A DNA stretch of 31,615 nucleotides from a virus (IMGVR_UViG_3300046837_000455:1-31615); one strand, 5' to 3'. Shown: positions 6,648 through 31,615, counted from the stretch's first letter. The notes: generated by a model not told the origin, from the sequence alone. Program-made: numbers and translations.

Positions 6648-7472
6648 TTACTTTCCCTGACGTTTGGCGCGCACCCGACGAATGAATTCGTCATCTGGGA
6701 TAGTAGCATACTGCGGATGCTGCTGTTTCAACTTCAGAATGTCGGCGTCGGAATCTGGGCTCTGGTTCGGCGCTTGTGACGGCTGATCTGACGGCGTTGG
6801 CATCTGCTGCGGACTGGCGGGCTGCCCGGCCGCGTTCATGGTACCAGGACCGAGACGGCGCTTCGTGACGGGGCTGTATCCCAGCGCCTTGAATTCGTTC
6901 TGCCGCATGTCTTCAATCACACCCGGAGAAACCTGCTGCTGGTTCAACGCGCCGGTGATACCACCCGCGTTGTTCATCGACTTCTGCATCGCCTTGACTT
7001 TCTCCCCGACGCGGCTTTCCACGTCCTTCAGGAGGTAGTCCGGGATCAGATCCGCATTCGGGTTCGGCGCGTGGCCGGCACCGGTCGGCGGCTTGCCGGC
7101 GAGCAGACCCATCAGTCCGCCACCCGTCTGGAAGTTGTGCACGGCGTTGCCGACGCGCTCCGCACCGAGAGTCGCCGAGTTCTGCGACGCCAGTTCGTAA
7201 TTGCGTTGGTCGTTCGTCTTCTTGTACTCGAAGTCCCGCGCATCGTTCTGCGCGGCGACCTCCGCGCTGTGATGGCGGTCGTCCATCGCCTGCTGCCGCA
7301 TCAGCTGGTCCTGCTCGTCATTGGCGCGGCGATCGTTCGCCGCCTGCTCGGCGAGCGCCAGCCGACGTTTCTCCTGCGGCGCCTGGACCAGAGCGGCGCT
7401 GAGGCCGCCGAGGCCGGCGGCGATGCCGCCGGGAGCGTTGATGGCGGCGTAGTTGAAGGAGGGAAGTGGCAT
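6648..7472 (-). CDS. Putative internal virion/ejection protein, 274 aa
   Basis: The N-terminus (INAPGGIAAGLGGLSAALVQ) is a Gly/Ala-rich amphipathic or membrane-active segment. It is followed by a long charged Gln/Arg/Asp-rich helix at about 30-95 that probably forms a coiled coil, and a Pro/Gln-rich low-complexity stretch near 215-245. The C-terminus ends in a basic helix (RRVRAKRQGK). The motif NSATLG at about residue 97 also occurs in the 357-aa protein two genes upstream. This design and the position between fibre and giant gene fit small ejection proteins of short-tailed phages. The upstream neighbour ends one base before this start. Confidence 0.6.
   Translation of the reverse strand: MPLPSFNYAAINAPGGIAAGLGGLSAALVQAPQEKRRLALAEQAANDRRANDEQDQLMRQQAMDDRHHSAEVAAQNDARDFEYKKTNDQRNYELASQNSATLGAERVGNAVHNFQTGGGLMGLLAGKPPTGAGHAPNPNADLIPDYLLKDVESRVGEKVKAMQKSMNNAGGITGALNQQQVSPGVIEDMRQNEFKALGYSPVTKRRLGPGTMNAAGQPASPQQMPTPSDQPSQAPNQSPDSDADILKLKQQHPQYATIPDDEFIRRVRAKRQGK
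7165..7183 (-). repeat. 19-bp exact repeat, copy 1 (NSATLG codons)
   Basis: The plus-strand sequence CCGAGAGTCGCCGAGTTCT recurs exactly at 8548-8566 in the 357-aa gene. Both copies are in frame and encode NSATLG. This suggests exchange or shared ancestry between the two ejection-protein genes. Confidence 0.7.
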
Positions 7473-10920: not shown

Positions 10921-13341
10921 CTAGAGTCGGGCGCCGGTGGTGGCATTGAGGATCAAGATGTTTTCGGCGCGCGTGCCGTCGTAGGTATTCGACGCACCAG
11001 AGAAGTTTCCGACCACCACTATGGCGCCGAGCGCGGGCTTGGTGACATAGATCGACGGGTTCGAGGAAGCGAAGCTGGCGTTGCCGCGCGAGGCGAACGT
11101 GAACCCGGAGATGAGGGTTCCAGACGTGTCGAGTTTGACGAGGTATTTACGGGCTGAGTCGCCGTTGAAGCTGGTCAGTTGGTCGCCGCCCAAGAACAGC
11201 GAGGAGCCGTCGGTTCCGACCGTGAAGTTCGTGCCGACCATCGTCGGCGCCGGCGGCGTAGAGAGCGCAAGCGTCGTGCTGAACGCTGGTAGATCCGTAG
11301 CAATGGTCGGTGGCGCCCCTGACGCGGCCAGCGGCGCTGGTACCCAGAGAATGCCCTGATTATTGGCCCCAAAATACAGAGTGCCGCCGATCGAGCAGCT
11401 CGCATCGCGCGAAGCGCTGGTACACGTCGCTCCCTGATACCGACGTGTAGCCTGCGAGAAGACTCCGGTGGCAGCGCTCGCCACGCCGATGGAATTCGCG
11501 AGCGTTCCGAGCCCGGTATTCCCGGTATCGATGAATTGGCCGGCACTGTTGCCCGCGAGGAATATCTGACTTCCGAACGGCGTACAGCGCTGCCATCCCG
11601 CTCCGAACTGGCCGAGAGCGTTCTGCGGCTGCCAAGAGTTCAGGGAATTGCCGGTGAAGGCGCATCCAGAGGCCCGAGCCGTGGCGCTCACGGTAGCGAA
11701 TGATCCGACAGCGTAGAGAAAACTTCCCGACGAACATATGTCAGTCACGGTGGTATTGAAAGTATGATTGAACCCAGTCACCAGGGCTCCGGACGTGTCG
11801 ATACGAGCAATATATTGCCGCACGACGCCACCGATGCTGCCAGTCGAAACCGGATAGTTCACATAGATATCGCCGTCGGAATGGGCCACGATCTTCTGGA
11901 CCGCGTTATTGCAGTTCGGATTCCAGGTCGTCCAGCGCCCGGTCGTCAGATTCAGGCAAGCCAGATTGTTTCGCGTCAGGGACCCAGAGGCATCGGTGAC
12001 GCTGGTGAACTGACCGCCGCAGTAGACGAGATTCCCGACTACCGCGAGGCTATTTATCGCGCCATTCGTATAGACGCCGGTGTTGTTGCCGATCGCCGCA
12101 GTGACGGTGAGGACGAGAGTAGCCGAAGTCGTACCGCCCGCATTGGTCGCACGGATTGTCAGGTTCACCGTCGCTGGATCTGGCGGAGTGCCGGAGATGG
12201 CGCCGGTGAGGGCGTTGATTGACGTCAGCCACGCCGGGGGTGACGACACAGAGTAAGTGATTGGTCCGGTGCCGGTCGCCGTGATCGTGTACGACCATAC
12301 CGTATCTTCGGTCGTGCTCGCGATGAGTGACGACGTGATGACCGGCGCGGCGGGCGCGACGACCGGGGGCGGCGTTGGTGGAACGACGACCACAGGTGGC
12401 GGGGGCGTGACTGGAACGGTCGTGACGGTGTAATACGGCGTTGCGTTGTTCACCGTCCAGATCGAACCTTCGGGCGCGGCGACGAACATCTCGCCGGAGC
12501 CGATCGTCGAATCCCAGACGCCGAAGGTCGGACCGTAGAAATTATCCAGCGGCGTCGGCGACGTGACATAATCCTGCGCGATCCAATATTTGTTGTCGGA
12601 CATCACGACAAGATCCGTGTAGTCGACGCTGGCCACGCCGTAGTCCCGAGCGAATGTCGGCAGCAGCAGATCCGGATTTGCGACAGCCGCGATCGGGAAC
12701 GTGAAGCGCACGATGCGCCGGCGGCAGACGACGAACAGCTGTCCGGTTGTCGCGTTGAAGAGGTCGGCGGTGACTTTGATGATATCACGGCAGTTCGGCG
12801 CACGCACCTTGCCGACGTACGTCATGGCGCCAGTCGTGGTGTTGACCTTGATGACGGCGATATTCGCTGTCTTGCCGTCAACCACATACAGCACGCCCTG
12901 CGCCGTGTGCGCCACCGCATACCGCGAATCAGAAATCATGCCGGTGAGCACAGAGATCTGAGCGCCGGTCGTGGCGTTCAGGATCTGGACACCGCCGTTC
13001 GCCAATGGGGTCGCGAGGAACGAACCGAACAACGCCAGCCAGCGGCCGCCGCCCGGATCGAACAGCGTGGTCGAGACCACTTGCGGCGCCGACACGTTGC
13101 TGACGCGGACCATGCCCTTCGTCGTCAACACATGGAAGTTCGGCGAAGACGAATTCTCGACTGCTAGCGGTTCGCCGCCGAGATCTGCAGATTCACCGAG
13201 GTACTGCATCTGACCGCCGGATTTGGCGGCGCGCAGGATGGTGTGGCGCGGCCCGGCCAGCGCGACGAGTGGATTGGCGTTGGGACCGCCCATTCCGGTG
13301 ATCGCGCCGAATGCCACATCGCGGTTCAAGATCGACGTCAT
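10921..13341 (-). CDS. Tail appendage: N-terminal strand-rich domain, Ig-like domain, C-terminal propeller-like domain, 806 aa
   Basis: The frame is open to 13449, but the ATG at 13341 (MTSILNRDVAF) is chosen because it lies one base after the previous stop with GGGG upstream. Residues 1-305 are rich in short strands with recurring (L)NATTGAQ-type turns, compatible with a beta-propeller. Residues 308-330 are a proline/valine linker. Residues about 332-415 match the putative Ig (He_PIG) pattern: ITYSVSSPPAWLTSINALTG, AISGTPPDP and TIRATNAGGT. Residues 425-806 contain repeats such as LVYCGGQFTSV and LFLGGDQLTSF, as in bacterial delta-60-type propellers. It probably forms a surface-exposed binding appendage or tail-hub extension. 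The fold is inferred from motif spacing. Confidence 0.7.
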   Translation of the reverse strand: MTSILNRDVAFGAITGMGGPNANPLVALAGPRHTILRAAKSGGQMQYLGESADLGGEPLAVENSSSPNFHVLTTKGMVRVSNVSAPQVVSTTLFDPGGGRWLALFGSFLATPLANGGVQILNATTGAQISVLTGMISDSRYAVAHTAQGVLYVVDGKTANIAVIKVNTTTGAMTYVGKVRAPNCRDIIKVTADLFNATTGQLFVVCRRRIVRFTFPIAAVANPDLLLPTFARDYGVASVDYTDLVVMSDNKYWIAQDYVTSPTPLDNFYGPTFGVWDSTIGSGEMFVAAPEGSIWTVNNATPYYTVTTVPVTPPPPVVVVPPTPPPVVAPAAPVITSSLIASTTEDTVWSYTITATGTGPITYSVSSPPAWLTSINALTGAISGTPPDPATVNLTIRATNAGGTTSATLVLTVTAAIGNNTGVYTNGAINSLAVVGNLVYCGGQFTSVTDASGSLTRNNLACLNLTTGRWTTWNPNCNNAVQKIVAHSDGDIYVNYPVSTGSIGGVVRQYIARIDTSGALVTGFNHTFNTTVTDICSSGSFLYAVGSFATVSATARASGCAFTGNSLNSWQPQNALGQFGAGWQRCTPFGSQIFLAGNSAGQFIDTGNTGLGTLANSIGVASAATGVFSQATRRYQGATCTSASRDASCSIGGTLYFGANNQGILWVPAPLAASGAPPTIATDLPAFSTTLALSTPPAPTMVGTNFTVGTDGSSLFLGGDQLTSFNGDSARKYLVKLDTSGTLISGFTFASRGNASFASSNPSIYVTKPALGAIVVVGNFSGASNTYDGTRAENILILNATTGARL

Positions 13342-13342
13342 G

Positions 13343-14818
13343 TCAGAGCCCCAAGACCGTGTATTTGTACGACAGGCGGCCGAGCACCCAAGGCGTGGCA
13401 CCGCCGACAGCGCCAGTGAAGCGCGTCGCGATCGCTTCGCCAGAGACAAGTGCGGGGATGTCGTTCTGGGTCGAGGTAGCGCCGGTGATCGTTGGCCCGG
13501 CTTCGATCTGCGTCGTGTCGCGCACGTCGGGCATGAACGACAGCGTCGCGGTACCTTCCATCACCACGTCGACCGTTGCGGCGAACTTCCGCACACCAGG
13601 GGCGCCGAAGTGGTCGTAGTGTGTTTCGAAGGTGAACGAGGTGCCGTCTACGTAGTTCGGGTTGAATCGGTAGAGCGTAGCGCCAGAACGCACGTACAAT
13701 TGCTTGTCGTGCTCCACCAGATACTCCACCGGAACCGACAGCGTCCACTTGCGCCAGCCCATCACCTTCGACGTTTCGGACAGCGTGTAGACCCATACGT
13801 CGTTGCCGAACGCGCAGATGTACTGCGAGCGGGCTTGCGACCAGATGGCCGTCGGCGCTGTGGTGAGCAACGACGTTTCCGGCGCGATCGGGGCGCCGAT
13901 GTCGCCCTCGCGCAGCTGGCCGGTGTACGACGACTGTTTGATCGAGCTGAAGACGCCGGCGCTGAAATAGAACAGGTCGCCGCGGACGTTCACGATCGAC
14001 CCGGGATACTCCGTGCCAGGGCCGTTCATGACCCGGTCGAGCCGATGCAGCGCCGGGTCCGGATCGACCAGCCAGAACTGCACGGAGTCGCTGAAGATGA
14101 CGGCGAGATACCGGTCGTACAGGCCAAGGCCGCGGATCAGTCGATCGGACACTGCATTCCGCAGGGTAGCCAGAAACCCGGCGTCGGCGACCTTCGTCCA
14201 GTCGCGGGGGCCGGCGGTGGTGCTGGAGAAGTGCACGGTGCCGTTGACGTTGTCGATGGCCCAGATCTTTTCTGCGGTCTTGGCGATGGCCCCGCCCGGC
14301 TCGAAGCCAAGCTGGAGGGTGGTCACCTTCGTCGACACAGGATCGTTCGACGGCACGTAGGGCGGCGGAGGTGCACCATTGACGTTCGGAACTGGCGTGT
14401 CCGTGATCCAGTGGTGCTCGTACCGGCCAGTGTCGCGCTGCAGCAGGATGTAGGGATAGGCGCCGATCGCGGCATCGACACCCCATGAGGTCACGGCGAT
14501 TACCTTGGTGATCGTCCCAGCGCCGTACACGGTGCCGTCGCCCACGGAGTCGTAGTAGATGGGCACGGGGCCGATGGTCGACAGCGCGAGGCTGTAGCCG
14601 GCCGGGATGACAGACCGAAGGTAACCGTTGATCGAATAGAGGCCGATGGACTCAGAGAGCAGCGTGGCGACTGGTTCCAGGCCATCGCGGGCGCCGACCG
14701 AGCCGTCGGTGCGCAGGTCGACGTTCGTGGCCGTACGGAACGATTTCGGGTCGCCGTCGTCGGCGATGGTGCGGAGGTCCAAACCCTTCGGCCAGGGGCC
14801 GGCGCTGCGGGTGGCCAC
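13343..14818 (-). CDS. Putative tail hub/nozzle protein, 491 aa
   Basis: The N-terminus has the pattern WPKGLDLRTIADDG...FRTATNVDLRTDGSVGARDGLEPV, seen in many short-tailed phage proteins that follow the head-tail adaptor. The rest is strand-rich with regular W/F repeats, compatible with a propeller-like platform. It is close in length to P22 gp10 (tail hub, about 470 aa), and gene order agrees. The start codon is GTG at 14818, with GGAG seven bases upstream; the adaptor stop lies within that spacer, so the two genes are coupled. Orthology to gp10 or T7 gp12 is an inference from order and size. Confidence 0.65.
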   Translation of the reverse strand: MATRSAGPWPKGLDLRTIADDGDPKSFRTATNVDLRTDGSVGARDGLEPVATLLSESIGLYSINGYLRSVIPAGYSLALSTIGPVPIYYDSVGDGTVYGAGTITKVIAVTSWGVDAAIGAYPYILLQRDTGRYEHHWITDTPVPNVNGAPPPPYVPSNDPVSTKVTTLQLGFEPGGAIAKTAEKIWAIDNVNGTVHFSSTTAGPRDWTKVADAGFLATLRNAVSDRLIRGLGLYDRYLAVIFSDSVQFWLVDPDPALHRLDRVMNGPGTEYPGSIVNVRGDLFYFSAGVFSSIKQSSYTGQLREGDIGAPIAPETSLLTTAPTAIWSQARSQYICAFGNDVWVYTLSETSKVMGWRKWTLSVPVEYLVEHDKQLYVRSGATLYRFNPNYVDGTSFTFETHYDHFGAPGVRKFAATVDVVMEGTATLSFMPDVRDTTQIEAGPTITGATSTQNDIPALVSGEAIATRFTGAVGGATPWVLGRLSYKYTVLGL

Positions 14819-16344: not shown

Positions 16345-17427
16345 TTACGCGGCGGAGGTGACCACAGCGTTGGCGTTGCCGATCGTGACGAACGGCGACA
16401 CGCGCTTGTCGAGGCTGACGCGCGTCATGCGGACGTCGGCCGGATCCGGCGGCATGCTCATCTTCTTGTCCTGCGCACCCGGGTGGCCGTACACGAAGCT
16501 GTCTTCCAGCAGCATGTAGCAGCGCAGGCTCCACGGGATCGCCGGCGCATCCAGCATGTCCAGGATGTCGAAGGTCGGGTCGATTTCCAGCGGCAGACCC
16601 TGGAACTGCAGACCCGAATCCGAGATGCTGATGTCCAGCTTCTTGGTGCCCTCAGCCTGGGTGTGCACCTGCCAGCTGTTGGCGGTGGCGTACCGGCTGT
16701 AACGATCCGCGAACTGGCGGCCGCAGATGATGCGGTACTTGCCGTTGGTCCGACCGCGGCTGTTCAGGCGCGCGTTCCACATCGCAGTGTTCATGCCTTC
16801 GCGCATGGTACCACCGGCGGTGTAGGTCAGGCCGAGGCTGATGTACGGCGCCACCAGCGGGTTGGTGAACGAAACGCCGCCCAGCGAGCCGGTGAGGGCC
16901 AGCGGAACGAACGCGTCGAGACCGGGCGGCAGCTTGGGATCCGCCGAACCGTCGCGGTGCAGGATCAGATCTTCCTGAACGTCGAAGTTGTCGTAGTGCG
17001 CTTCGAGCTTGTCCTTCACGATGTTGCGCAGGCGCGACGCTTCGTTCTGCGACAGGGGGCTCGCGATCTTGGCGTTCTTCTCGTTGAAATCGATCTCGTA
17101 GCCTTCGTTCATGAGGTAGTCATGGACGAAGATCAAGCCCAGGTGCAGATTGTAGAAATTGAACTCAGTCTGCAGATCGATCTCGTTCTCGTTGAACGCG
17201 AGCGGATCCAGATTGGTCCAACCCTGCATGGGGTTTTCAGCCGACTTCTGCAGAGCGACGCGAACGGCGCCCTGGTTGCTTTCGACTTTCTTGATGCGGC
17301 TGAACCAGAAATCCTTCAGCGGCATGGCCTTGCGGTCGATCTTGATCGGCGCGCGGCGGTTGTAGACGCCTTTGTCCACGGAGTTGATGATCTCCTGAAG
17401 GACAGCGGCTGGGACGGAAATGGCCAT
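16345..17427 (-). CDS. Major capsid protein, HK97-like fold, 360 aa
   Basis: It directly follows the scaffold gene and precedes a strong terminator, the usual place for the shell protein. The sequence has a helical N-arm (VPAAVLQEIINSVDKGVYNR), a long spine-like helix near 125-145 (SPLSQNEASRLRNIVKDKLE), and mixed strands with Pro/Gly turns through the C-terminal half, as in HK97-fold coats. It has no long low-complexity or signal region. Several hundred copies would build the icosahedral head. Assignment rests on size, composition and order (portal, scaffold, coat, adaptor), not on a single catalytic motif. Confidence 0.8.
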   Translation of the reverse strand: MAISVPAAVLQEIINSVDKGVYNRRAPIKIDRKAMPLKDFWFSRIKKVESNQGAVRVALQKSAENPMQGWTNLDPLAFNENEIDLQTEFNFYNLHLGLIFVHDYLMNEGYEIDFNEKNAKIASPLSQNEASRLRNIVKDKLEAHYDNFDVQEDLILHRDGSADPKLPPGLDAFVPLALTGSLGGVSFTNPLVAPYISLGLTYTAGGTMREGMNTAMWNARLNSRGRTNGKYRIICGRQFADRYSRYATANSWQVHTQAEGTKKLDISISDSGLQFQGLPLEIDPTFDILDMLDAPAIPWSLRCYMLLEDSFVYGHPGAQDKKMSMPPDPADVRMTRVSLDKRVSPFVTIGNANAVVTSAA

Positions 17428-18648: not shown

Positions 18649-20820
18649 CTATCGTCCCGGTTTGGGGCCGGGGATGTTGGCGGCGGTCATGGGGCGGTTC
18701 TGGCTGGGGCCGGGATTGCCACCGCCCTGGCCTTGCTGCGAGTTGGGACTGGTTGGCCCCTTGGCGGTGTTCGACGTGTCGCCGCCTCCGCCAGGACCTT
18801 CCATGCCGGGCATGGGCATCGGAGCCTTCTCGAAGTACCGCGACAACCCTTCGTAGATACCGGTGTCGCGCGCGACGACATCCATCAGTTCCGGACCCTT
18901 CGCCTGCATGCCGCAAGCCGTGGCGAGGCCAAACATTTCCTTCCAGAACTTCAGGCGCTTCTCCGTGTCGGGTGCACCCATGCTGCCAGCCGTAACTTCG
19001 AGGTGCAGCTGGCGGTAGATGGTTTCCTTGTCGACAACCGGCCACACCGCGCCAGGACCGGCAACGGCCATGACATTGTTCAGCGGCAGGATCTGCAGCG
19101 CGATGTCCGCGACGCAGGTGCCGACGTCGAGGATCACGTCATCGAGGATGGCGGACTTGAAGTCGGCGAGCTTGTCGACGCCTTGCTGCGCCGTGACGAC
19201 TTCCGTCGCGGAGTCACTGGCCCCAGTGACACCTCCAGCCACAGTCGACACCCCAGCCATCTTTTGGAGGTCCATTTCAGCGCGAGAAGTGTCATAGAGC
19301 TGTCCGTTGTAGGCGACGGGCGCCGTTTCGTAAATGGCCTTCTTGACTTCGTCGACGCTCTCCAGCTCGATGACCTGATACGGCCGGCTGTTCTGGTACT
19401 TCAGCTTCTCGCCCTTCCGGAACGCGCCCTTCTTGACGAGGATGCGCGGGAAAGCTGCTTTCTTGGCGTGGCGGTCGTGCGTGCGGAAGAGGTTGATTTC
19501 TTCCTGCGCGGGACGCTGCAGCGCGGTCGAGGAGATGCCAACGAACCGGCCGGTGGTGCGGTTGAAGAGGGCCGGGATGAATGGGAACCAGTTGCGCCAC
19601 ACCGCGGTGGGGGTGTACTTCTGGAGCATCTTCTTGTAGCCGGGGATGAACACGCAGACGTAGTTCAGCTCGCGATCCCAGCATTCCCAGACGGAGGTCT
19701 CCGCGCCGGAGGTAGTGTCCTCCAGGTTCTGCCGCTGATCGTAATCGACGTCGATATTCGAGCCGTTGGTGTCCTTGGCTTCCTTCTGGAAGCTGGGGAT
19801 CATCTTCAGCTGTTCGTCGCTCAGTTTGAACTTGACGCCGACTTCCTTGCGCGTCATGCGGACGCGGTGATAGATCTTGCGCGCGTCGTAGATGTCTTCG
19901 GGACGCGTGATGCGCCAGTCGACACGTACGTCATCAGGGAGAAGGAAGTCGGTGGTCAGCCCGACGTAATACGGAACGTTCGGCACCAGCGTCGACGGGA
20001 TGGGCGTGCCGGCTTTCAGCGCGTCCATCTGCAGCTGCCGGGGGTCCGGTGGCTGCATGGCGATACCGGTCATCGGATCGATCTGTGGCGCGATGGGCGC
20101 CATGGTGATCTGCTCTTGCAGCTCGGCCGTTAGATACGTACGGACGGTTTCCGTCAGCTGTTTGAACCGCTCCATCTCGGCGGAGCCGTCCGAGATCTCG
20201 CCGGAGGTGACCTGCTGCTGGTAGTAGCGGTAGAGGGCGAACGTGTTCTGCTGGTCGTTGACGCGCACCGTGCCGATGGGATCGCGGCTGGTGTCCATCT
20301 GCTGGTTGACTTTGATCCAGACGAGGTTGTTCGTCTCGATGTCCTGCACAGCGCCGCGAAGGCGCTGGCGGAACCGGTTGGTCTTCAGGATGTCCTTGAC
20401 GATGATCGTGAGCGTGCGACCGAAATCAGTCAGATACTTCGGCGCCTCGCCGGGGGTCGGCGCGGAGACCATGCCGGTCATCGGGTCCATCTGGGGCGGG
20501 ACGTCCGGGTAGATCTGCTCGCCGGGACGCCACACGATCTGCGGGTCGCGAGCGGCGATGGTGGCGCTCAGCAGGAACTGGTTGCGAAGGATGTGGTTGG
20601 TGCCGACGGCGTCTTCAGCGTCAAGCAGCATGCACTCGTCATTGACGTAGTCGCGGTCTTTCTGGAACGCCTTGAACCACTTCGACAGCTTCGAGGGGAC
20701 CTTCAGGTCGCGTTCGTAGTCGGCGATGAGGGCGGCCTCTGCCGGGTCGATGGCATTGGGGTCGACTACGACGGGGGCTTCGGTGACAGGAGCTTCAGCG
20801 ATGGCGGTGGGATCATCCAT
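18649..20820 (-). CDS. Portal protein, P22-like, 723 aa
   Basis: The length is nearly that of P22 gp1 (725 aa). The N-terminal half holds a long helical/wing region (FKAFQKDRDYVNDECMLLDA, NQFLLSATIAARDPQIVWRP) and several acidic strands. Near 430-480 the pattern NWFPFIPALFNRTTGRFVGI, then QRPAQEEINLFRTHDRHAKK, is typical of P22-type portals, with the clip and stem region. The C-terminus is Gly/Pro/Gln-rich. The ATG at 20820 is favoured (GGGAAA upstream), although a TTG five codons earlier is possible. The start overlaps the end of the upstream membrane gene. Confidence 0.85.
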   Translation of the reverse strand: MDDPTAIAEAPVTEAPVVVDPNAIDPAEAALIADYERDLKVPSKLSKWFKAFQKDRDYVNDECMLLDAEDAVGTNHILRNQFLLSATIAARDPQIVWRPGEQIYPDVPPQMDPMTGMVSAPTPGEAPKYLTDFGRTLTIIVKDILKTNRFRQRLRGAVQDIETNNLVWIKVNQQMDTSRDPIGTVRVNDQQNTFALYRYYQQQVTSGEISDGSAEMERFKQLTETVRTYLTAELQEQITMAPIAPQIDPMTGIAMQPPDPRQLQMDALKAGTPIPSTLVPNVPYYVGLTTDFLLPDDVRVDWRITRPEDIYDARKIYHRVRMTRKEVGVKFKLSDEQLKMIPSFQKEAKDTNGSNIDVDYDQRQNLEDTTSGAETSVWECWDRELNYVCVFIPGYKKMLQKYTPTAVWRNWFPFIPALFNRTTGRFVGISSTALQRPAQEEINLFRTHDRHAKKAAFPRILVKKGAFRKGEKLKYQNSRPYQVIELESVDEVKKAIYETAPVAYNGQLYDTSRAEMDLQKMAGVSTVAGGVTGASDSATEVVTAQQGVDKLADFKSAILDDVILDVGTCVADIALQILPLNNVMAVAGPGAVWPVVDKETIYRQLHLEVTAGSMGAPDTEKRLKFWKEMFGLATACGMQAKGPELMDVVARDTGIYEGLSRYFEKAPMPMPGMEGPGGGGDTSNTAKGPTSPNSQQGQGGGNPGPSQNRPMTAANIPGPKPGR

Positions 20821-21346
20821 GGTTGCGTTTCCCAAACACCTTGCGCAGGTTCAGCTTGAGGGCTTCACCGTGGTTGACGTACATGGAGGCGACGATAGCA
20901 ACCAGGGCGCCTAGCGCAACGACCCAGAGGTACGGCAGGATCTGGCCGAGGATGATGGAGGCGATGCCCGCGGCGATCGCTGCGACACCGGCGAAGCGGA
21001 GGAAACCGACCAGGGGGTAGAAGAACGACAGGATGATGGCGGCGAGGCCGCCGGCAATGGCGAGGCCACCAGCGACGTTGAACCACAACTGGCGAGCGTT
21101 TGTTTCCGCAGTATTGGCGTTCTTCGCGTACCGCACAGCTTCAGCAGCGTAGCGCTCGGAGAGGTCCTTGAAATAGGCGGCGCGTTCACGATCGCCAGCA
21201 TCCGCGGGGAGAACTTTTGGTGCTGACAGTTCCGGCTTCGGAAGGATATCGGGGAGTGTCGGTATCACCGGCCCGCACCCGTACAGCAGTACGAGGACGA
21301 TCAGGGCGACCAGCGACCAGCTGTAGATGCGCCAGGAGAAGTTCAC
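20813..21346 (-). CDS. Membrane protein with lipobox-like N-terminus, 177 aa
   Basis: Translation starts at a GTG that overlaps the previous stop (GTGA). Residues 11-24 form a hydrophobic segment ending LLYGC, a plausible lipoprotein signal (Cys24 as acyl site). Residues 28-85 are polar with a helical run (RERAAYFKDLSERYAAEAVRY). Three further hydrophobic helices follow at about 89-110, 114-136 and 140-157, with a basic tail. This could be a virion-associated or lysis-related (holin/spanin-like) membrane protein; no family match is claimed. The frame upstream of the GTG only shadows the neighbouring gene, so it is not part of this protein. Confidence 0.55.
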   Translation of the reverse strand: MNFSWRIYSWSLVALIVLVLLYGCGPVIPTLPDILPKPELSAPKVLPADAGDRERAAYFKDLSERYAAEAVRYAKNANTAETNARQLWFNVAGGLAIAGGLAAIILSFFYPLVGFLRFAGVAAIAAGIASIILGQILPYLWVVALGALVAIVASMYVNHGEALKLNLRKVFGKRNHG

Positions 21347-21618
21347 GGCGTGTTGACTTTGATCGTGGCGGAGGGGTTCAGCAGGTTGGCCTTGATGAGG
21401 ATTTCGCGGTGGGCCTGGACCTCGATGGTCAGTGCGTCGACCTTCGCCGGGATGGCGTCGATCTTGGCATAGAACAGGGTCGCCCACACGACAGCACCGG
21501 CGAGGACGCTCCAGGTTCGCCACGTCGCGCTGACGTTGCCTTCGGGATCGATGCGCGCCCACGCCATGCGGACGGGGGGTTTCTGCGCGGGGAATGGGCG
21601 GTTGGGGGTATCGACCAT
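21343..21618 (-). CDS. Single-span membrane protein, 91 aa
   Basis: The ATG at 21618 (MVDTPNRPF) is preferred to the one at 21657, which would overlap the preceding gene by 35 bases. A proline-rich N-terminus is followed by one membrane helix at about 34-51 (TWSVLAGAVVWATLFYAKI) and an amphipathic helix at 55-80 with a short leucine-like spacing. The layout recalls small phage holin or XhlA-like membrane partners. It is coupled to the 177-aa membrane gene by a GTGA overlap, so the pair may work together. Confidence 0.55.
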   Translation of the reverse strand: MVDTPNRPFPAQKPPVRMAWARIDPEGNVSATWRTWSVLAGAVVWATLFYAKIDAIPAKVDALTIEVQAHREILIKANLLNPSATIKVNTP

Positions 21619-21622
21619 GGTG

Positions 21623-22360
21623 TTACCGGATCCGTGTGGCGACGAGGGTGGCGTCAATGGTGGGCGTTCCGGCGGCGTAGGTCACGTTGCCGGTGAGGTA
21701 GAGGGTGGTCGGCGCAGCGACACGGATGCGAACCTGCGGGATGGTCAGTGGAAAGATGCCGTTCGCGAGAAGGGCGAGGATGCTTTCCTGTGCCATCGTG
21801 CTGCCGGAGACGCCATCAGCACCGGTGGTGGTCGTGACGGACATCTTCGCGGTGGTGCCCGTCGTCAGGCCGGTGGCGCCGCCCTTGATGATGCCGAGCG
21901 CGGACACCAGCCAGTCGCCGGCGGTGAGGGCGATCGAGGTCCAGTTGGCGGTGACCGTGGTAGCGCCGACAGCGGCAGCGGCGACGGTACTCTTGATCTC
22001 TTCGCCGAGCTTCCCGGCGGCGGCAGTGGAGGCGTCGACGAATCCGAGGAAGGTCTGTGCGAAGGTCCAGGTGTTGGCCTGTTCCGCGACGACCACAGAG
22101 CTGTTCGCGGCCAGAACGGGGACGCTCAGTGATCGGCTCGCGGTCTGAATGCCAGTCTTGAGGGTCAGGGCGAAGCCAGAGGCGCACTCAACGTCGACCA
22201 GGAGTTTCTTGGTGGGGTCGGCAGCATCGACGATGGCGAAGGTGGTGTCGACGATGGTGGCGAAGAACGTGGTGGTGTCGATCCAGCCGGCGGCAATCTT
22301 GCCCGACGCGTTCGCCTTGGGCACGCTGAGAGCTGCAGGGGTTTGTGTGGCCGCGGTCAT
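21623..22360 (-). CDS. Putative virion surface/fibre protein, 245 aa
   Basis: It is Ala/Thr/Val-rich with many short strands, few charges and no signal peptide, as in phage decoration and fibre proteins. The N-terminal pattern ASGKIAAGWID and the C-terminal run LYLTGNVTYAAGTPTIDATL suggest a strand-rich trimeric or jelly-roll end. A hydrophobic helix near 120-133 (STVAAAAVGATTVT) may form a core. Its ATG overlaps the stop of the upstream PHPQY fibre-like gene, so they are co-translated. Function is inferred from composition and neighbours. Confidence 0.5.
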   Translation of the reverse strand: MTAATQTPAALSVPKANASGKIAAGWIDTTTFFATIVDTTFAIVDAADPTKKLLVDVECASGFALTLKTGIQTASRSLSVPVLAANSSVVVAEQANTWTFAQTFLGFVDASTAAAGKLGEEIKSTVAAAAVGATTVTANWTSIALTAGDWLVSALGIIKGGATGLTTGTTAKMSVTTTTGADGVSGSTMAQESILALLANGIFPLTIPQVRIRVAAPTTLYLTGNVTYAAGTPTIDATLVATRIR

Positions 22361-22938
22361 GTGTAAAGCGGGTCCAGGACCTGAGTTTGCAGTTCGACAT
22401 CCCAGACCAGTTCGCCGATGTCAGTATCGAGGATAGCTGCGGGTGTGGTACGAACGTACCGCGAATCGGCCGGGAGTCCAGCGACAGCCGTGTTGACCGC
22501 TTCGGTGATGTCGGCGAGCTGCAGGTACTGCGGGTGGGGGTTCGCTTCGGCGACGTGAGCCGCGATTGCCGCGGCAATGCCGGCGGCCGAGGTGTCGGCG
22601 ACGGTGGACCCGGCCACCTGCGGCGCACTGATCCAGGCCGTCGCCACCGTATTCGCCCGGAACACGGCGATGGTCCCCGACGTGCCGAGGACGCCGGCGG
22701 TGGCGGTCAGATAGAGGGTGGTTTCGGGGGTGAGGCCATCGAGACCATCCAGCTCGCCGCCGGTGACCACTTCGAACCGGTTGGTGTCTGGGATGGTGCC
22801 GCAGACGCCATTGAAGCCGGTGGAGGTGGTGGCGAGGCGGTAGATGCCGCCGGAGAAGACGACCGGCTGGCCGCGGGCGAACCCGTGGCCGGCTTGGTGT
22901 TTCATCGACGATACGCGCGACCCGGGCTGGGTGGCCAT
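22357..22938 (-). CDS. Fibre-like protein with PHPQY motif, 193 aa
   Basis: Residues about 120-145 read AAHVAEANPHPQYLQLADI, a match to the [AD]PHPQYL motif found in phage tail and head fibres. The first 90 residues (FARGQPVVFSGGIYRLATTS, LYLTATAGVLGTSG) form a small beta-sandwich of the kind that precedes fibre shafts. The protein then ends in short strands. It probably makes a short fibre or its base, perhaps with the 245-aa partner whose start overlaps its stop. The RBS is weak (GTAGG), consistent with coupling to the gene before. Confidence 0.65.
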   Translation of the reverse strand: MATQPGSRVSSMKHQAGHGFARGQPVVFSGGIYRLATTSTGFNGVCGTIPDTNRFEVVTGGELDGLDGLTPETTLYLTATAGVLGTSGTIAVFRANTVATAWISAPQVAGSTVADTSAAGIAAAIAAHVAEANPHPQYLQLADITEAVNTAVAGLPADSRYVRTTPAAILDTDIGELVWDVELQTQVLDPLYT

Positions 22939-22941
22939 GGC

Positions 22942-23232
22942 CTACCGCAGGACGAAGGCGTGGAGGAGACCGCTGGCGGACGCTGCGGCCGCGGTGAAGA
23001 CGGTTGTCTGCGCGATCTCCAGCTGCAGCGCCGCGCCGCTGGCGATTGGGAACGCTGCGTTGCCGCTGGAGCGGGCGAAGAGCGTGCAATCGACCGTCGG
23101 CCGGAAGGCGACGACGCGCGGGTAATTGGCGTTCACCGTGATGGTGATCGTGTCAGGTGACGTGGTGATCGACAACGCCTCGTTGCGATTCTTGCTGTCC
23201 GTGCGGTCCGAAAGGTCAATGGCCAGGGGCAC
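22942..23232 (-). CDS. Small virion-associated protein, 96 aa
   Basis: The start is GTG at 23232, six bases after a strong GGAGG; an ATG at 23259 would overlap the preceding gene by 26 bases. The protein is strand-rich: ALSITTSPDTITITV, YPRVVAFRPTVDCTLFAR and the Ala-rich tail. This looks like a small beta-sandwich that could decorate the head or cap a fibre. Similar small proteins often lie beside phage fibre modules. No family is recognised. Confidence 0.6.
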   Translation of the reverse strand: MPLAIDLSDRTDSKNRNEALSITTSPDTITITVNANYPRVVAFRPTVDCTLFARSSGNAAFPIASGAALQLEIAQTTVFTAAAASASGLLHAFVLR

Positions 23233-23233
23233 G

Positions 23234-23491
23234 TCAGCCTCCGAAAACGGCCTTGACACGGCCGAACAGAGATTTCGGTGCGTCAGGGTTCATGGGTTCG
23301 AGATCTGCGACGAGGACACCGGTGAAGGTCGCGCCATAGGTGGCGAACAGAACGTTCGCGTACTCCACGCCGTCACGCGTTTCGATGCCGACCACGACGC
23401 CCAAGCTGTCGCCGACGGCTGCGGACTGGCGGTCGGCCAGTTCGTTCGAACAGGGGCTGTCTTTGAACCAGACGGGGTCGTTGATCTTCAT
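23234..23491 (-). CDS. Small SH3-like protein, 85 aa
   Basis: The ATG at 23491 is chosen (MKINDPVWFKDSP; GGAA upstream) because upstream residues in the longer frame shadow the previous gene. The order NDPVWFKDS, GDSLGVVVGIETRDGVEYANVLFATYGATFTGVLVADLEPM is the five-strand layout of SH3/KOW-like barrels. Its C-terminus is basic (SLFGRVKAVFGG). Such small barrels occur as phage accessory or decoration proteins. The fold is inferred from strand pattern only, and the function is unknown. Confidence 0.6.
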   Translation of the reverse strand: MKINDPVWFKDSPCSNELADRQSAAVGDSLGVVVGIETRDGVEYANVLFATYGATFTGVLVADLEPMNPDAPKSLFGRVKAVFGG

Positions 23492-23501
23492 GGGATTCCG
23501 T

Positions 23502-25061
23502 TCAGGTGTAGAACATGCTGACGCTGTGCTCGGACACGGCCACAGCGCCGGTATCCGCCACAGTGATACCAGTCGTGAGGGCATATGCAATGCCGGTCGA
23601 GAAGCGCATGCCGTACGGCCCGCAATCGAGACTGATGTTCGAGTTCGGTGGGATCGCGATGGTCATGACTGGTGTGTCAGTTCCAACGGTGGGTGCCGTC
23701 GCTTTGTTGTAGAGCTTGAGGTACCGCACGGCGGCGTTGATGTTCGAGCACTGCAGGACGCCGACCGTGCCCGCGCTGCCCTTGACGGACGTGGCGTTGG
23801 TGCTGGCGGCGCTGATGAGGTGGTGCGTGCTGCTGGAGCCCTGCGCGGCGGATGGCACGAGGGTGTCGAGCCACGGATTCGAGTTCGCCGTGTTGTCCGA
23901 TGCGATGGCGATGCGTGCAGTGTTCGCCGAGACCGTACCGTTGCTGGTGGCGATGGTGCCGCCGTTCAACTGAGCGATGTTCGTCGACTGGTTGCCGACC
24001 AGTGCGCCGATGATGGCCGTGCCGGCCGGCAGTGCGTTGTCGAGAGCGACCATCGCGGCCGCACCCTGGATAACGCGGATGGTGACGACAGCGGTACCCG
24101 TCATCGCCGCGAGCCCAGTCACGCGCATCTTCAGCGCGCCAGCCGCTTCGCACTGGAAGACCGACTGCAGTGCCGACGTAATGCTCGCGAGGTAGCCGCT
24201 GGTGTTCAAATTGATGAGTGGCGTACCGCCGAGCGTGATCCAGTTCGTGCCGTCCAGCGTCGCCTGCAAACTGAGTGCACCGGTGTAGGTGCCGGTGACC
24301 TGGATCGCCGCGGTCGACCCGCCAGCCATCGTCACTTCGACTGCCGAGCCGGCGGTGGCGACGCCAGCCGGCACCAAGTTCTGCGTGGTGATCGATCCGG
24401 AGGCCGCGGCCACTTCGGTGGTCGTCGAGAGCGAGCCAGCGGCGCTGACCGCCGCCGCAACACCGTTGATCTCGGAGATGGAGATCGGCAGATTGCCGAG
24501 AGAGGTAACGGCTGGCAGGGTGCCGAACGCCGTGTTGATATTGAGGGTGGTAGTGGTGCTGCCACCGTTGTTGACGAAAGTCAGAGAGAAATAATTGCCG
24601 TTCGCCGTGAAGCACCGGCTGAATGGGACACCCGCAGTGACCACGTATGGAACTGAACTGCTGATGCGCGTTCCGGCGAGGTCGATGTATTGCTTGAGAG
24701 TCAGCGTGCCGGTCTGATCCGACGTGACGAGCAGGCTGATAGCCTGCGCATTGATGATGCTCTCGATGGCGCCGGTAAAAGTTGCCGCCGCGGCGAGTTG
24801 AGCTGTGCTGCTATTCGCTGTCGAGAAGAAGAACTCGGTGGCGCCGGCAGCGACGAGTAAACCTTCGACACCAGTGCCGGTGCCGAGTGATCCGATCGCC
24901 ACTGCACTCGCGTTCTGGAGTGTAACAGGGATCTTCGATTGGTCTGAAGCGATCACCACCGGCCCACTGTTGGCCGCCGTGGCTTGCCCGTTCGGGTTGA
25001 TCGTATTGATGAGGATGTTGGCGCTGAACGCGTCTTTGACTGTCAGGGTCGGCTGTGCCAT
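23502..25061 (-). CDS. Putative head fibre or surface protein, 519 aa
   Basis: A strong AAGGAG sits six bases before the ATG. The protein is rich in Ala, Thr, Gly and Ser with few charges and contains VVIASDQSKIPVTLQ near 35-50 and a related RIAIASDNTANSNPW near 380, a strand motif repeated in phage fibre and capsid-associated proteins. Around 255-335 (TGTYTGALSLQATLDGTNWITLG, then AAGALKMRVTGL) the pattern is that of a jelly-roll/carbohydrate-binding-like domain. It probably forms trimers on the virion surface. Host binding or decoration is inferred. Confidence 0.6.
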   Translation of the reverse strand: MAQPTLTVKDAFSANILINTINPNGQATAANSGPVVIASDQSKIPVTLQNASAVAIGSLGTGTGVEGLLVAAGATEFFFSTANSSTAQLAAAATFTGAIESIINAQAISLLVTSDQTGTLTLKQYIDLAGTRISSSVPYVVTAGVPFSRCFTANGNYFSLTFVNNGGSTTTTLNINTAFGTLPAVTSLGNLPISISEINGVAAAVSAAGSLSTTTEVAAASGSITTQNLVPAGVATAGSAVEVTMAGGSTAAIQVTGTYTGALSLQATLDGTNWITLGGTPLINLNTSGYLASITSALQSVFQCEAAGALKMRVTGLAAMTGTAVVTIRVIQGAAAMVALDNALPAGTAIIGALVGNQSTNIAQLNGGTIATSNGTVSANTARIAIASDNTANSNPWLDTLVPSAAQGSSSTHHLISAASTNATSVKGSAGTVGVLQCSNINAAVRYLKLYNKATAPTVGTDTPVMTIAIPPNSNISLDCGPYGMRFSTGIAYALTTGITVADTGAVAVSEHSVSMFYT

Positions 25062-25070
25062 GAAGGCTCC

Positions 25071-25238
25071 TTAGACGAACGCCGACACAATCGCCGCGTA
25101 CATGCTGTTGGAATCGATCGAGAAGTCGATCACCGGGCCTGGAATAGCAGGAGCACCGGACGGGAAATACCCAAGGTAAGGACCATCGGCAAAGCCGATG
25201 ATCCCCAGCGCTTGGACATACCCGAGCCGGATCTCCAC
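25071..25238 (-). CDS. Candidate small protein, 55 aa, filling the gap before the 519-aa gene
   Basis: Reading from a GTG at 25236-25238 gives 55 residues, MEIRLGYVQALGIIGFADGP through SAFV, ending TAA at 25071. It fits exactly between the stop at 25243 and the RBS of the 519-aa gene, and its hydrophobic residues are regularly spaced. The RBS is poor because AAGG is only two bases away. The reading frame is +1 relative to the preceding gene, so a frameshift extension is an alternative. No database match can be claimed. Confidence 0.45.
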   Translation of the reverse strand: MEIRLGYVQALGIIGFADGPYLGYFPSGAPAIPGPVIDFSIDSNSMYAAIVSAFV

Positions 25239-25242
25239 GGCC

Positions 25243-26085
25243 TTACAGGCGTTCGAGATTCACCAGCGCGGCGCTGGTGTTCCAGGTCACATCGAAGCAG
25301 GCGGCCTGATAGTCGATGTTCGCGGTGAAGGTACCGCCGGTGATCTGCGTGATGTCCGCAGCGTCGTTCACCCACACTTCGACCTTGGAGCCGACAGCGA
25401 TGGTCTGGTTGAAGATGATGCCCTTGCCGCTGGCGGCCGCGATGGTCACGACCTGAGTGGCGACCTTCGCCACCTGCAGAGGTGGGGTGATCGGCACGAG
25501 GACTTCGGTGGTGCCGTTCAGCGCGGTGCTGGTGGCGGTGGCGTAGTACACCGTGGCATCGGCCGTACCGGGGCTGGTGGCCACAGTGATGCGGTCGCCG
25601 ACCAGGATGGTCTGGGTGTCAGCACCCGAGCTGGCGATCGACATGCTGGTCGAACCGACGAGCAGAGCGGAGGCGGTGGTGCCCTTGATGCTCAGGGTGG
25701 CGTCGGCCACCGCAGTGCCGCCGCCAGCCGCCACGATGAAGGCGTTGGTGGGGACGACCTGATCGCCACGAGCGCGGCCAGCCGCGGTCACCGCGTCGTT
25801 GACCAGCGCGACCACGCGGAGCTGGTTCAGATCGCTCAACGCGCCGCCGGTGGTATTCTGAGGGGTGTTGATACCCGAGCTGAGCAGGAAGTGCTTGTTG
25901 CCCGTCAGCGTCTGTTGGAAGCGCTGGTACTTGGTGGCGGAGCCTGAACCAGGGCTATTCACCCCGTACATCACAGCCGCGCCCGGACTCTGATACGACA
26001 GCGCATTACCCTTGATGAAGGGCAGCGCGTTGTTGCGGGTGAGAGTCGAAACGGCGACAGACTTGGTGAGCGCGGCAGCAGCCAT
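25243..26085 (-). CDS. Putative virion structural/decoration protein, 280 aa
   Basis: AGGAA lies eight bases before the ATG. The N-terminus (ALTKSVAVSTLTRNNALPFI) is an amphipathic helix, and the rest is Thr/Ala/Val-rich with strand repeats such as DATLSIKGTTASALLVGSTS and VGSKVEVWVNDAADITQITG. The C-terminus ends in TWNTSAALVNLERL. It lacks charged clusters, Cys pairs or catalytic motifs. It lies in the terL-portal module and may decorate the capsid or bind fibres. A second shell protein is possible but less likely than the 360-aa capsid gene. Confidence 0.55.
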   Translation of the reverse strand: MAAAALTKSVAVSTLTRNNALPFIKGNALSYQSPGAAVMYGVNSPGSGSATKYQRFQQTLTGNKHFLLSSGINTPQNTTGGALSDLNQLRVVALVNDAVTAAGRARGDQVVPTNAFIVAAGGGTAVADATLSIKGTTASALLVGSTSMSIASSGADTQTILVGDRITVATSPGTADATVYYATATSTALNGTTEVLVPITPPLQVAKVATQVVTIAAASGKGIIFNQTIAVGSKVEVWVNDAADITQITGGTFTANIDYQAACFDVTWNTSAALVNLERL

Positions 26086-26162
26086 GGTTCAGTTCCTGGG
26101 GAGACCCCGTGGAGGTGGAGAAAACTTCGGCCTGCCCTATTCAGAGCAACACCGACGGTACA

Positions 26163-26444
26163 CTAACTCAGTCTCTTGCGAGTCAAGGGGTGAATTACCG
26201 CCCCCGGCCGGATGTGTGCTTCGATCGAGTACGTGCCCAGCGGCAGCAGCCATTTCTTCCCGGTGACCGCCTGCACCCACAGCTGGTTCGCATGGTCCAG
26301 ATACAGTTCGTACGGCTTCAGCATTTCCGCCACGTCGTACTCCACGATCACTCGCCAGTGCGCCCGGTTCTTGATCGGCACGCGCCGCGTGGCGTCAGTT
26401 GGCCCCGGCTCGCTCGGCGTCCCTTTGTAGTACCGGGACACCAT
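26163..26444 (-). CDS. Small hypothetical protein, 93 aa
   Basis: The frame is open to 26504, but the ATG at 26444 (MVSRYYKGTPSEP) follows the large-terminase stop by one base and has GGGACGACGAG upstream, so this is a re-initiation site. The protein has a strand-rich centre (HWRVIVEYDVAEMLKPYELY, QLWVQAVTGKKWLLPLGTYS) and a basic end. It may be a small beta-barrel partner of the terminase or of the downstream structural gene. No family is recognised. Confidence 0.6.
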   Translation of the reverse strand: MVSRYYKGTPSEPGPTDATRRVPIKNRAHWRVIVEYDVAEMLKPYELYLDHANQLWVQAVTGKKWLLPLGTYSIEAHIRPGAVIHPLTRKRLS

Positions 26445-26445: not shown

Positions 26446-28026
26446 TCACTCGTCGTCCCGCGCGAAGAACTGCCCGCGCTTCGCCGGCCCCCGTTCGTCC
26501 GCATCGAGTGCCGCTTGAATGAAGTCGTGCACGTAGTCTCCCGGCGGTGCGTCCGGGATCTCCACTTCCGCTTCCGGTTTCATCATCTCGTGGAAACTGA
26601 GGAACGGCAGCGCCGCAGTGTCGATCGGGTCGTCCTGCTTCAGGTTGTCGAATCCGAGGAACAGCGGATAGATCCGCTCCCGGAAATACGGCGTGTCGGG
26701 GAAGTGCACCTTCCCCTGTTGCATGTGGTTCGCCAGCGCCACCGAATGTTCTTTCTTCTTCTTGGTCCGCGCGAATTCCACCATCTTCACGTTGTAGAGT
26801 TTGCGCCGCGTCTGCTGCGTACGGAACTCCGGCCGGTGTCCGTTCAGGATCACACCTTTCTCCACGAACAAGTACCGCGCGTCATACTTCTGGATCTTCG
26901 CCCAGATGTCTTCCGCGTGGCGCTGCGTGTCGCACTGTTCCAGGAAGATGTCGTCGAGGAACCAGATGTCATCGCGGTCGTCCAGGAAGAACGGCCACGT
27001 CACACTGAAGTCACCGCTCCCTTCGCTCGTCGCGAAGTCCGTGCTGATCCCGTATGTGCGCGCCGTCGGGAACGCTACGTTGCGCGGATCATACCATCCT
27101 TTCTTGAACCATTCTGCCTTGAAAAAGTTTCCGTCGTCCGGCACCGGATTCTGCTGGTACAGCGCGCTCCAGATCCGACCTTGCTTGCTAGCGTAGTACG
27201 TATCCTTCATCTGCTGACAGATTGCCGTCGTGAACCGTTCCGGGTGCAGTGACTCGCCCGTCTTCCGGCGCAACGTTCCATCCGACTTGAATTCGTCCTG
27301 CGTCGCCACAAGTGGGAACTTGTAGCTCATCCACTGATCGCCGCCGATCTTCGCCGCTGCAAGGCGACGGCCGATCAGGTCGTCCTCGTGCCACCGGGTG
27401 TGCAGGATGATGATCCCGCATCCCGGCAGCATGCGCGTATACGCGACGGCCATGAACCAGTCGTCGACCTTCTTGCGCATCAGTTCCGAGTCGGCCTCTT
27501 CCATGTCCTTGAACGGATCGTCGACCACGAACGAATGCGCGCGCTTGCCAGTTGCCCCCGCGCCCACGCCGACGAACGACAGCTTGCCGCCCTTCGTCGT
27601 CTCCAGGTAGGACATCGACGTCGTGCGCGAGTCCAGTTCCAGATGGGGGTGGAGTTGCTTGAACGTTTCGTTCTGCATGACCCGGCGGAAGTCACGCCCA
27701 ACTTCGTCCGCCCGGTCCTGGTTGAACGTGCCAACGATCTGGAACCACTTCGGGTGTTTGCTCCAGATGAAGGCAGGCAGGTGACGGGAAACCATCAGTG
27801 TCTTGCCAAACCCCGGTGGGAGTTCGATCAGGAGCCGCGGTGACTTCCCCTGCTCGCACGCCTTGATGTACACTTCGAGGATCTGGAACAGTTCCGCATG
27901 CACCGCCCCGGTCATCCAGTCCGTTTCGAGCAGTTCGACTTGATGGCGGAGTGATGTCTTCGCCGCCTCCTGCTTCGCCTTCGCGGCGAGGAGGATGTCG
28001 CGAGACGCGTCGAGATCGGCAGTCAT
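26446..28026 (-). CDS. terL: Terminase large subunit (packaging ATPase and nuclease), 526 aa
   Basis: The ATG at 28026 overlaps the upstream stop (ATGA) and starts MTADLDASRD. The ATPase half shows a deviant Walker A (PPGFGKT, 70-76), Walker B (VVDD, 167-170) and the coupling motif ILHTRWH near 207-213. The nuclease half has the acidic triad candidates D330 (GISTDFA), E389 (FVEKG) and D501 (DYVHDFIQA). The adapted length of about 530 residues is normal for the family. The enzyme pumps DNA into the prohead through the portal and cuts it; a headful versus cos mechanism cannot be told from this window. Confidence 0.95.
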   Translation of the reverse strand: MTADLDASRDILLAAKAKQEAAKTSLRHQVELLETDWMTGAVHAELFQILEVYIKACEQGKSPRLLIELPPGFGKTLMVSRHLPAFIWSKHPKWFQIVGTFNQDRADEVGRDFRRVMQNETFKQLHPHLELDSRTTSMSYLETTKGGKLSFVGVGAGATGKRAHSFVVDDPFKDMEEADSELMRKKVDDWFMAVAYTRMLPGCGIIILHTRWHEDDLIGRRLAAAKIGGDQWMSYKFPLVATQDEFKSDGTLRRKTGESLHPERFTTAICQQMKDTYYASKQGRIWSALYQQNPVPDDGNFFKAEWFKKGWYDPRNVAFPTARTYGISTDFATSEGSGDFSVTWPFFLDDRDDIWFLDDIFLEQCDTQRHAEDIWAKIQKYDARYLFVEKGVILNGHRPEFRTQQTRRKLYNVKMVEFARTKKKKEHSVALANHMQQGKVHFPDTPYFRERIYPLFLGFDNLKQDDPIDTAALPFLSFHEMMKPEAEVEIPDAPPGDYVHDFIQAALDADERGPAKRGQFFARDDE

Positions 28027-28211
28027 ACCCGCTCCGAAGGGTGCCGCCATCCGGGGGCGATCGCGTCCCGCTTCCATTGGGGCCACCCCGCGATGGCCGT
28101 TTCCGCCCGCCGTAGTTGATGTGCGAGCCACCCCATTGGGGGTGGCTCAGGCGGGGGCACTGATAGGGGCACCGGTTGTGCACCAAATATGAGGTCGATG
28201 GGGGTGGTCAT
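28023..28211 (-). CDS. Small proline-rich hypothetical protein, 62 aa
   Basis: It is bracketed by ATGA overlaps on both sides, with the 66-aa gene before and terL after, which supports translation. The N-half is proline-rich (PVPLSVPPPEPPPMGWLAHQ), and the C-half is basic and may be helical (LRRAETAIAGWPQWKRDA). It could help translation coupling from the small terminase to terL or be a small packaging helper. A perfect 10-bp hairpin at 28125-28148 lies in its coding region. No family is recognised. Confidence 0.6.
   Translation of the reverse strand: MTTPIDLIFGAQPVPLSVPPPEPPPMGWLAHQLRRAETAIAGWPQWKRDAIAPGWRHPSERV
28125..28148 (-). other. Perfect 10-bp hairpin within the leader gene of terL
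   Basis: Arms GAGCCACCCC (28125-28134) and its complement (28139-28148) flank an ATTG loop; on the minus strand the loop reads CAAT and the right arm contains the ATG of codon MGW. The stem lies about 100 bases before the terL start. It could tune translation or act as a pause site. Structure is seen directly and function is inferred. Confidence 0.5.
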
Positions 28212-31284: not shown

Positions 31285-31615
31285 ATGTCATACACCATCA
31301 AACACCGATTCACGTCCGCCACCCTGTTTCACAGTGAGACCGCGGAGAATGTGACGACCGCCGTCGAAGAGGCGGTGAAGGCAAAAGCAAACCTGAGTGG
31401 CGCGAACCTGAGTGGCGCGAACCTGAGTGGCGCGAACCTGAGTGGCGCGAACCTGAGTGGCGCGAACCTGAGTGGCGCGAACCTGAGTGGCGCGGACCTG
31501 AGGTACGCGAACCTGAGGTACGCGAACCTGAGGTACGCGAACCTGATGGACGTGGACCTGAGGGACGTGGACCTGAGTGGCGCGAACCTGAGTGGCGCGG
31601 ACCTGAGTGGCGCGA
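31285..31615 (+). CDS. Pentapeptide-repeat protein, N-terminal part, truncated by the window
   Basis: The ATG at 31285 has GGAAGGGAA upstream. About 35 residues of lead-in ([20 protein letters not shown]) precede at least 15 pentapeptides from 31390 to the edge: seven NLSGA, then [40 protein letters not shown]. The A(D/N)LxxA pattern builds a right-handed square beta-helix. Some members mimic DNA and protect or inhibit gyrase; others have no known role. The C-terminus is missing here, so length and capping are unknown. Confidence 0.9.
31390..31494 (+). repeat. Seven identical 15-bp tandem units within the pentapeptide gene
   Basis: AACCTGAGTGGCGCG repeats seven times without a single change; further units to 31614 differ by a few bases. 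Identical codons, rather than just identical amino acids, point to recent slippage or unequal recombination. The unit length keeps the frame, so copy number can vary without breaking the protein. Confidence 0.95.

Follow-up and report, generated by a model that had tools for sequence, protein, structure and literature searches.

A ten-gene block with fibre-like products between terL and portal in an uncultivated P22/Pam1-type phage

Introduction

Few gene neighbourhoods of tailed phages are as stable as the pair formed by the terminase large subunit (terL) and portal genes. Pam1, Mae-Yong1326-1, RHph_N65 and KPP25 have terL and portal genes related to those studied here and a similar order of head and tail genes, and Mae-Yong1326-1 and RHph_N65 also have a related major capsid protein; in all four, however, terL and portal are adjacent and the block described below is absent. 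Insertions between the two genes have been published for other phages. Microbacterium phage Quhwah carries 17 ORFs between terL and portal and Hendrix carries 40, while Arthrobacter phage Laroye has five genes there, and in cluster AT an endolysin gene lies between terL and the protease gene (PMC7302621, PMC5513430). Insertion at this site thus has precedent. A further described system that bears on one of the products is XepA, from a lytic cassette of prophage PBSX; this beta-sandwich protein is described together with the putative holins XhlA/XhlB and the amidase XlyA (PMC6834076).

Here we analyze a single uncultivated virus record, IMGVR_UViG_3300046837_000455, of 31,615 bases and 63.7% GC, which we call the window. 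Its structural genes lie on the minus strand in the order terL, ten ORFs, portal, a scaffold-like ORF, major capsid protein, SU10-type adaptor and tail genes.

Results

An earlier note on this DNA had listed ten genes, with products of 93, 280, 55, 519, 85, 96, 193, 245, 91 and 177 aa, between terL and portal. All ten were found with these lengths, on the minus strand and in one direction, spanning 5.6 kb (Table 1), and each is named here for the length of its product. The ATG of g93 is 1 nt from the terL stop codon, g91 and g177 overlap in the sequence GTGA, and the g177 stop codon overlaps the portal ATG by 8 nt. GC3 of the ten ORFs ranges from 0.70 to 0.88, and their strand, GC and third-position bias are like those of the flanking genes. 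With junctions this tight, the block reads as an integral part of the operon and not as an assembly joint. The least certain gene of the block is g55.

Table 1. Genes of the terL to adaptor region of the window
Feature	Coordinates	Strand	Remarks
terL, terminase large subunit	26446..28131	-	phrog_38 E 2.9e-67; Pfam Terminase_6N; upstream border of block in transcription order
g93	26163..26444	-	ORF, GC3 0.83; phrog_3249 only at E 0.035
g280, Ala/Gly/Ser/Thr/Val-rich	25243..26085	-	phrog_1302 E 0.018
g55, small ORF, GTG start	25071..25238	-	weakest third-position bias
g519, multidomain fibre-like protein	23502..25061	-	motif, fold and tip-domain matches
g85, small protein after g519	23234..23491	-	phmmer homologues E 6e-24 (L180), 3e-14 (L179)
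g96	22942..23232	-	phrog_13532 E 0.011 only; no phage match
g193, fibre-like	22357..22938	-	HVAEANPHPQYLQL stalk motif in sequence
g245, tail-fibre distal piece, C-terminal tip domain at residues about 100-245	21623..22360	-	phrog_11393 tail fibre
g91, possible single-pass membrane protein	21343..21618	-	KD 1.59 at residues 38-56; no matches
g177, membrane protein	20813..21346	-	four hydrophobic segments; no phage match
portal	18649..20820	-	phrog_156 E 1.8e-10; phrog_12082 E 7e-5; downstream border of block
major capsid protein	16345-17427	-	
SU10-type adaptor	downstream of capsid gene	-	

Pfam and NCBIfam scans of the block returned nothing above cut-off, and searches of PDB sequences returned nothing beyond an insignificant match of g280 to HslV. 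Scanning for promoters and terminators gave signal at or below chance, and the RNA structure upstream of g280 did not differ from that of shuffled sequences. Neither by DNA nor as a module of any described phage did the block find a match, and most of its proteins were without matches. No close relative of the window phage was detected by DNA among 50,697 phage records, nor in IMG/VR by portal, terL and g280 peptides, nor by g280 in 84,980 genomes.

Outside the block, the tail module contains a tail-fibre gene (9276-10883, minus strand) in which Pfam recognises three YadA-stalk repeats and a tip rich in glycine. It is adjoined by a gene for an 842-aa protein (10921-13449, minus strand) having a weak beta-propeller (DUF5122) match and no PHROG match. 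Large internal or ejection proteins are often encoded downstream of tail genes, where the window has a gene for a 1706-aa protein with no family match (1524-6644, minus strand). On the opposite strand to the structural genes, the left end encodes a calcineurin-like phosphoesterase (88-1158, plus strand). The last 60 bases (about 31555-31615, plus strand) contain a repeated GACCTGAGTGGCGCG-type unit that translates into a pentapeptide repeat (LSGADLSGA-like); a pentapeptide-repeat gene is also present in KPP25.

Among described phages, those most closely related to the window by terL, portal or capsid include Pam1, Pan3, KPP25, CBW1004C-Prop1, phiA008, Mae-Yong1326-1, RHph_N65 and ctsTn925, and the window portal could be aligned with those of Mae-Yong1326-1 and RHph_N65. 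Portal comes straight after terL in seven of these eight; one 182-aa gene lies between the two in phiA008. The gap was then surveyed, using local HMMs, in the best 80 IMG/VR loci by terL profile and the best 80 by portal profile, sampled in order of their similarity to the proteins of the window, plus the 8 known relatives. Counts were taken from loci with both genes on one strand (n=154), leaving out a few that had no recognisable portal. Among the matches listed, the median terL-portal gap in these 154 loci was -15 nt; the gap exceeded 300 nt in 12 of them and exceeded 1 kb only in L070, at 4.7 kb. The relatives and the survey bear out the claim that terL directly precedes portal in the usual P22-like order, from which the window deviates. 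From the adjacency in relatives and the gap survey it follows that the block, with its ten ORFs, is a real and rare multi-gene insertion in a lineage whose terL and portal are normally adjacent. Nor did it turn up as an ordinary module in any group of described phages examined here, although multi-gene inserts of other content have been published (PMC7302621, PMC5513430). The surveyed loci held no relatives of block proteins other than g519, and those of g519 came through annotated phages fetched with it.

The notion that terL-portal gaps never occur was rejected, as both L070 and L222 have one. In L070 (3731-8422), the gap is filled by fibre-like genes, including one of tail-fibre type, whose sequences are unrelated to the window's block. 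L222 (IMGVR_UViG_3300009537_000472, 2714-7242) has six genes in 5.3 kb between terL and portal, encoding among others a relative of g519 (E 2e-24), a membrane protein (KD 2.6) and a possible coiled-coil protein. Since its terL (phrog_2, E 3e-29) and portal belong to other families than those of the window, the L222 insert probably arose independently. Other terL-portal sites, at which the earlier note had suggested looking for the same block, thus yielded a related insert with a g519 relative and a fibre-like set, but not the same gene set.

The product of g519 comprises an N-terminal VKDA...ASDQ motif (the ASDQ motif reported earlier is present), beta domains, a XepA/YomS-like domain at residues 218-335 and a C-terminal tip domain at residues 411-518. 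Its last 110 residues match uncharacterised proteins of Caulobacter phages S2B, KSC and Cr30, cyanophages S-SRP01 and DSL-LC07, Octadecabacter virus DB2, Xanthomonas phage PBR31, Arthrobacter phage Tweety19 and Mycobacterium phage Funsized. This C-terminal domain of about 110 aa has the invariant residues of the KSC gp046-type tip family and places g519 in it. In IMG/VR the tip domain was found in at least 584 stretches, 185 with stricter patterns, and in more than 100 loci. Across the family the tip is kept and the N-terminal part varies; two tip-domain proteins of the family occur in tandem in L241 (2365-3312). Two of the nearest relatives, in L179 and L180, have the N-terminal VKDA...ASDQ/STEQ motif in common with g519, and each is followed directly by a gene homologous to g85. 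The small protein g85 thus co-occurs with g519, possibly as its partner or chaperone.

An AF2 model of g519 built on a 30-sequence alignment was confident for the C-terminal beta domain (pLDDT about 93), moderate for the middle domain at 218-335 (about 55-83) and low for the N-terminal half. The fold of this moderately modeled middle domain resembles the beta-sandwich of the XepA C-terminal domain (VIA-align Z 10.0, 106 aa, 2.5 A) and YomS (Z 9.8), and it also resembles a phage virion baseplate-cup protein (9f4b). Rows under Z 8 were taken as background and left uninterpreted. Foldseek also listed peptidylglycine monooxygenases, vicilins and similar proteins, which were rejected as long, low-TM alignments. 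At moderate pLDDT, the domain therefore belongs with XepA/YomS by fold; profile searches of PDB sequences found no homology of g519 to either. Of the block products, g519 is also the only one for which the jelly-roll pattern noted earlier is upheld, by the beta-sandwich domains of its model.

Over residues 82-245, g245 matched the phrog_11393 tail-fibre family at E 9.4e-6 and can be assigned to it. Homologues of g245 occur in 10 IMG/VR loci, and the one in L263 matched the same family at E 2e-13. The PHPQY motif reported earlier is present in g193, as NPHPQY, which we take to be a motif of fibre proteins and which is the basis for calling g193 fibre-like; database searches with g193 gave no match. 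We tried g280 as a distal tail protein, as its residues 130-206 resemble a domain of such proteins and are 32% identical over 77 aa to an L241 protein, and rejected it for having one short domain in common and no membership. A g280 AF2 model made without an alignment was discarded (pLDDT 31). The earlier view of several products as fibre or surface proteins thus holds for g245, by family and homologues, and for g519, by its tip family and virion-gene neighbours, and extends to g193 by motif.

Relatives of g519 are located beside terL, portal or capsid genes in many phages and in tail modules in others. A PHROGs scan of 150 genes lying immediately beside members of the g519 family matched, as the commonest annotated families, virion structural protein, portal, major head, head closure, tail and tail fibre. 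The 25 most frequent included no lysis family, though each family was matched by few members. In 24 loci where the terL or portal profile also matched, the tip gene was 6 nt to 8 kb from terL or portal. It follows shortly after portal in L243, L213 and L275, follows the capsid gene in L182 and L179, and lies right before terL in L299; the order in L248 is terL, portal, tip gene, small genes, scaffold and capsid. In L263 (2616-3970), tip genes of the g519 and g245 types are adjacent, 0.3 kb before terL, portal, scaffold and capsid genes. L307 (223-11132) is a contig of a Methylibium MAG. Its portal (E 3e-23), capsid (E 4e-18) and adaptor are of the same type as the window's, its terL matches differently, and one of the five small genes that separate portal from capsid encodes a 154-aa g519-type tip protein. 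This contig faintly suggests that phages of this group have a beta-proteobacterial host.

Two adjacent genes had been read as encoding membrane proteins. This is certain for g177, whose four strong hydrophobic segments have KD values of 2.1-2.3 at residues 10, 95, 115 and 136, the first followed by a lipobox-like LYGC, and only probable for g91, with one marginal segment (KD 1.59). That the two form a lysis or envelope pair, as the earlier note had proposed, is possible but found no support: neither had a family match, and no endolysin domain was detected by Pfam or PHROGs in the window, which is a fragment. A classical o-spanin is a small lipoprotein without further membrane spans, and g177, with three more hydrophobic segments after its lipobox-like start, has too many for one.

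Discussion

We consider it fairly probable that the block is an accessory virion-fibre cassette that a P22/Pam1-type phage carries as an insert in its head operon, at the junction of terL and portal. Position, rarity and gene content of the block are the observed part of this reading. From homology for g519 and g245, and from its motif for g193, these three are predicted to be fibre or appendage proteins with beta-rich tips on stalks. The block products would be made late, with those of the head genes; the fibre proteins could be incorporated into virions by attaching through their N-terminal parts to the head surface or to the neck or tail, and the tip domains would bind the host surface. The two terminal membrane-type ORFs might conceivably add a lysis or envelope function.

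In favor of the fibre cassette we count the g519 tip homologues in head, tail and terminase neighbourhoods, the structural families that prevail beside its IMG/VR relatives, the tail-fibre family of g245, the likeness of the g519 middle domain to XepA/YomS and a baseplate-cup protein, the tip pair of L263, the inserts of L222 and L070, the small-gene block of L307 and the tip genes that follow portal. Counted against it are the lack of informative relatives for g93, g280, g55, g96, g91 and g177, the moderate model confidence of the XepA-like domain (pLDDT about 55-83), the occurrence of such tip-domain proteins beside lysis genes in KSC, and the fibre-like genes already in the tail module (9276-10883). 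An extra fibre set is plausible given these tail-module genes, though they prove nothing.

The tie to XepA raises the alternative of a block that is mainly a lysis or envelope cassette, in which g519 acts like PBSX XepA, g91 and g177 are its spanin- or holin-like partners and the fibre-like genes are passengers. The fold match to XepA and YomS and the company XepA keeps in PBSX would fit, as would the membrane proteins (g177 and probably g91) at the end of the block and the gene order in Caulobacter phage KSC, which runs from terL through gp045 and gp046, the g519 relative, to a SAR endolysin and i-/o-spanin genes. We nevertheless think this unlikely, given that the annotated families met most often beside g519-type genes are structural, that the window has no detectable endolysin domain, and that the four hydrophobic segments of g177 are unlike a classical o-spanin; in addition, YomS, a C-terminal-type domain alone, is not cytotoxic (PMC6834076), and the same fold is found in a virion baseplate (9f4b).

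About as unlikely, in our estimate, is a collection point, where unrelated small genes with no common task were captured singly at a tolerant site. Most block products are without relatives, and many genes in the published inserts of Microbacterium EC/EI phages, Hendrix and Arthrobacter AL phages have functions that are unknown or unrelated (PMC7302621, PMC5513430). Yet at least three of the ten products are fibre-like, g519 and g85 travel together, tips of the g519 and g245 types are adjacent elsewhere, and all ten ORFs run in one direction and are tightly coupled. Far less credible still is a chimeric assembly or rearranged contig that wrongly puts fibre genes between terL and portal: the window is a single uncultivated contig for which no close relative was found, but both ends of the block have tight junctions, strand and composition are uniform, and an arrangement of the same type occurs on L222, an independent contig.

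More speculatively, the proposed fibre cassette might encode a multi-protein capsid appendage, a head fibre or turret for adhesion, made of g519, g193, g245 and perhaps g280 and co-expressed with portal because it is built onto the head; many uncultivated phages would then carry such cassettes, at terL-portal and at portal-scaffold sites. We regard this extension as doubtful, if somewhat less so than the lysis and collection-point alternatives. The block is in any case a concrete candidate set for head-borne adhesion. If fibre-type cassettes with a common tip family settle independently at or near the terL-portal site in unrelated phages, then looking there would be an easy way to find, from the genome, host-attachment proteins so far overlooked in phages for which only sequence is available.

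Compared with known systems, the arrangement is unusual and its parts are familiar; it is not a new system. Like the window, Microbacterium EC/EI/EF phages, Hendrix and Arthrobacter AL phages have several to many genes between the usually adjacent terL and portal, but they are actinobacteriophages, and the inserted genes are mostly described as of unknown function or non-structural rather than as a fibre set (PMC7302621, PMC5513430). XepA and YomS of the Bacillus prophages PBSX and SPbeta (6i56, 6i5o) share the fold of one g519 beta-sandwich domain (Z about 10), whereas sequence similarity to g519 was not detected and g519 is longer and multidomain. Caulobacter phage proteins KSC gp046 and S2B gp004c, and similar uncharacterised proteins of phages, have the C-terminal tip domain, with 29-50% identity, and their genes lie close to terL; they differ in being shorter, in their other N-terminal parts and in belonging to phages classed as Autographiviridae. 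L222 comes nearest in layout, with its g519-family tip and membrane protein among the six genes between terL and portal, while its terL and portal families differ and its other five genes have no detectable sequence in common with the window's block. What is new here is that a P22/Pam1-type phage has a fibre-rich set between terL and portal, together with the recurrence of one tip-domain family at and around this site in unrelated phages.
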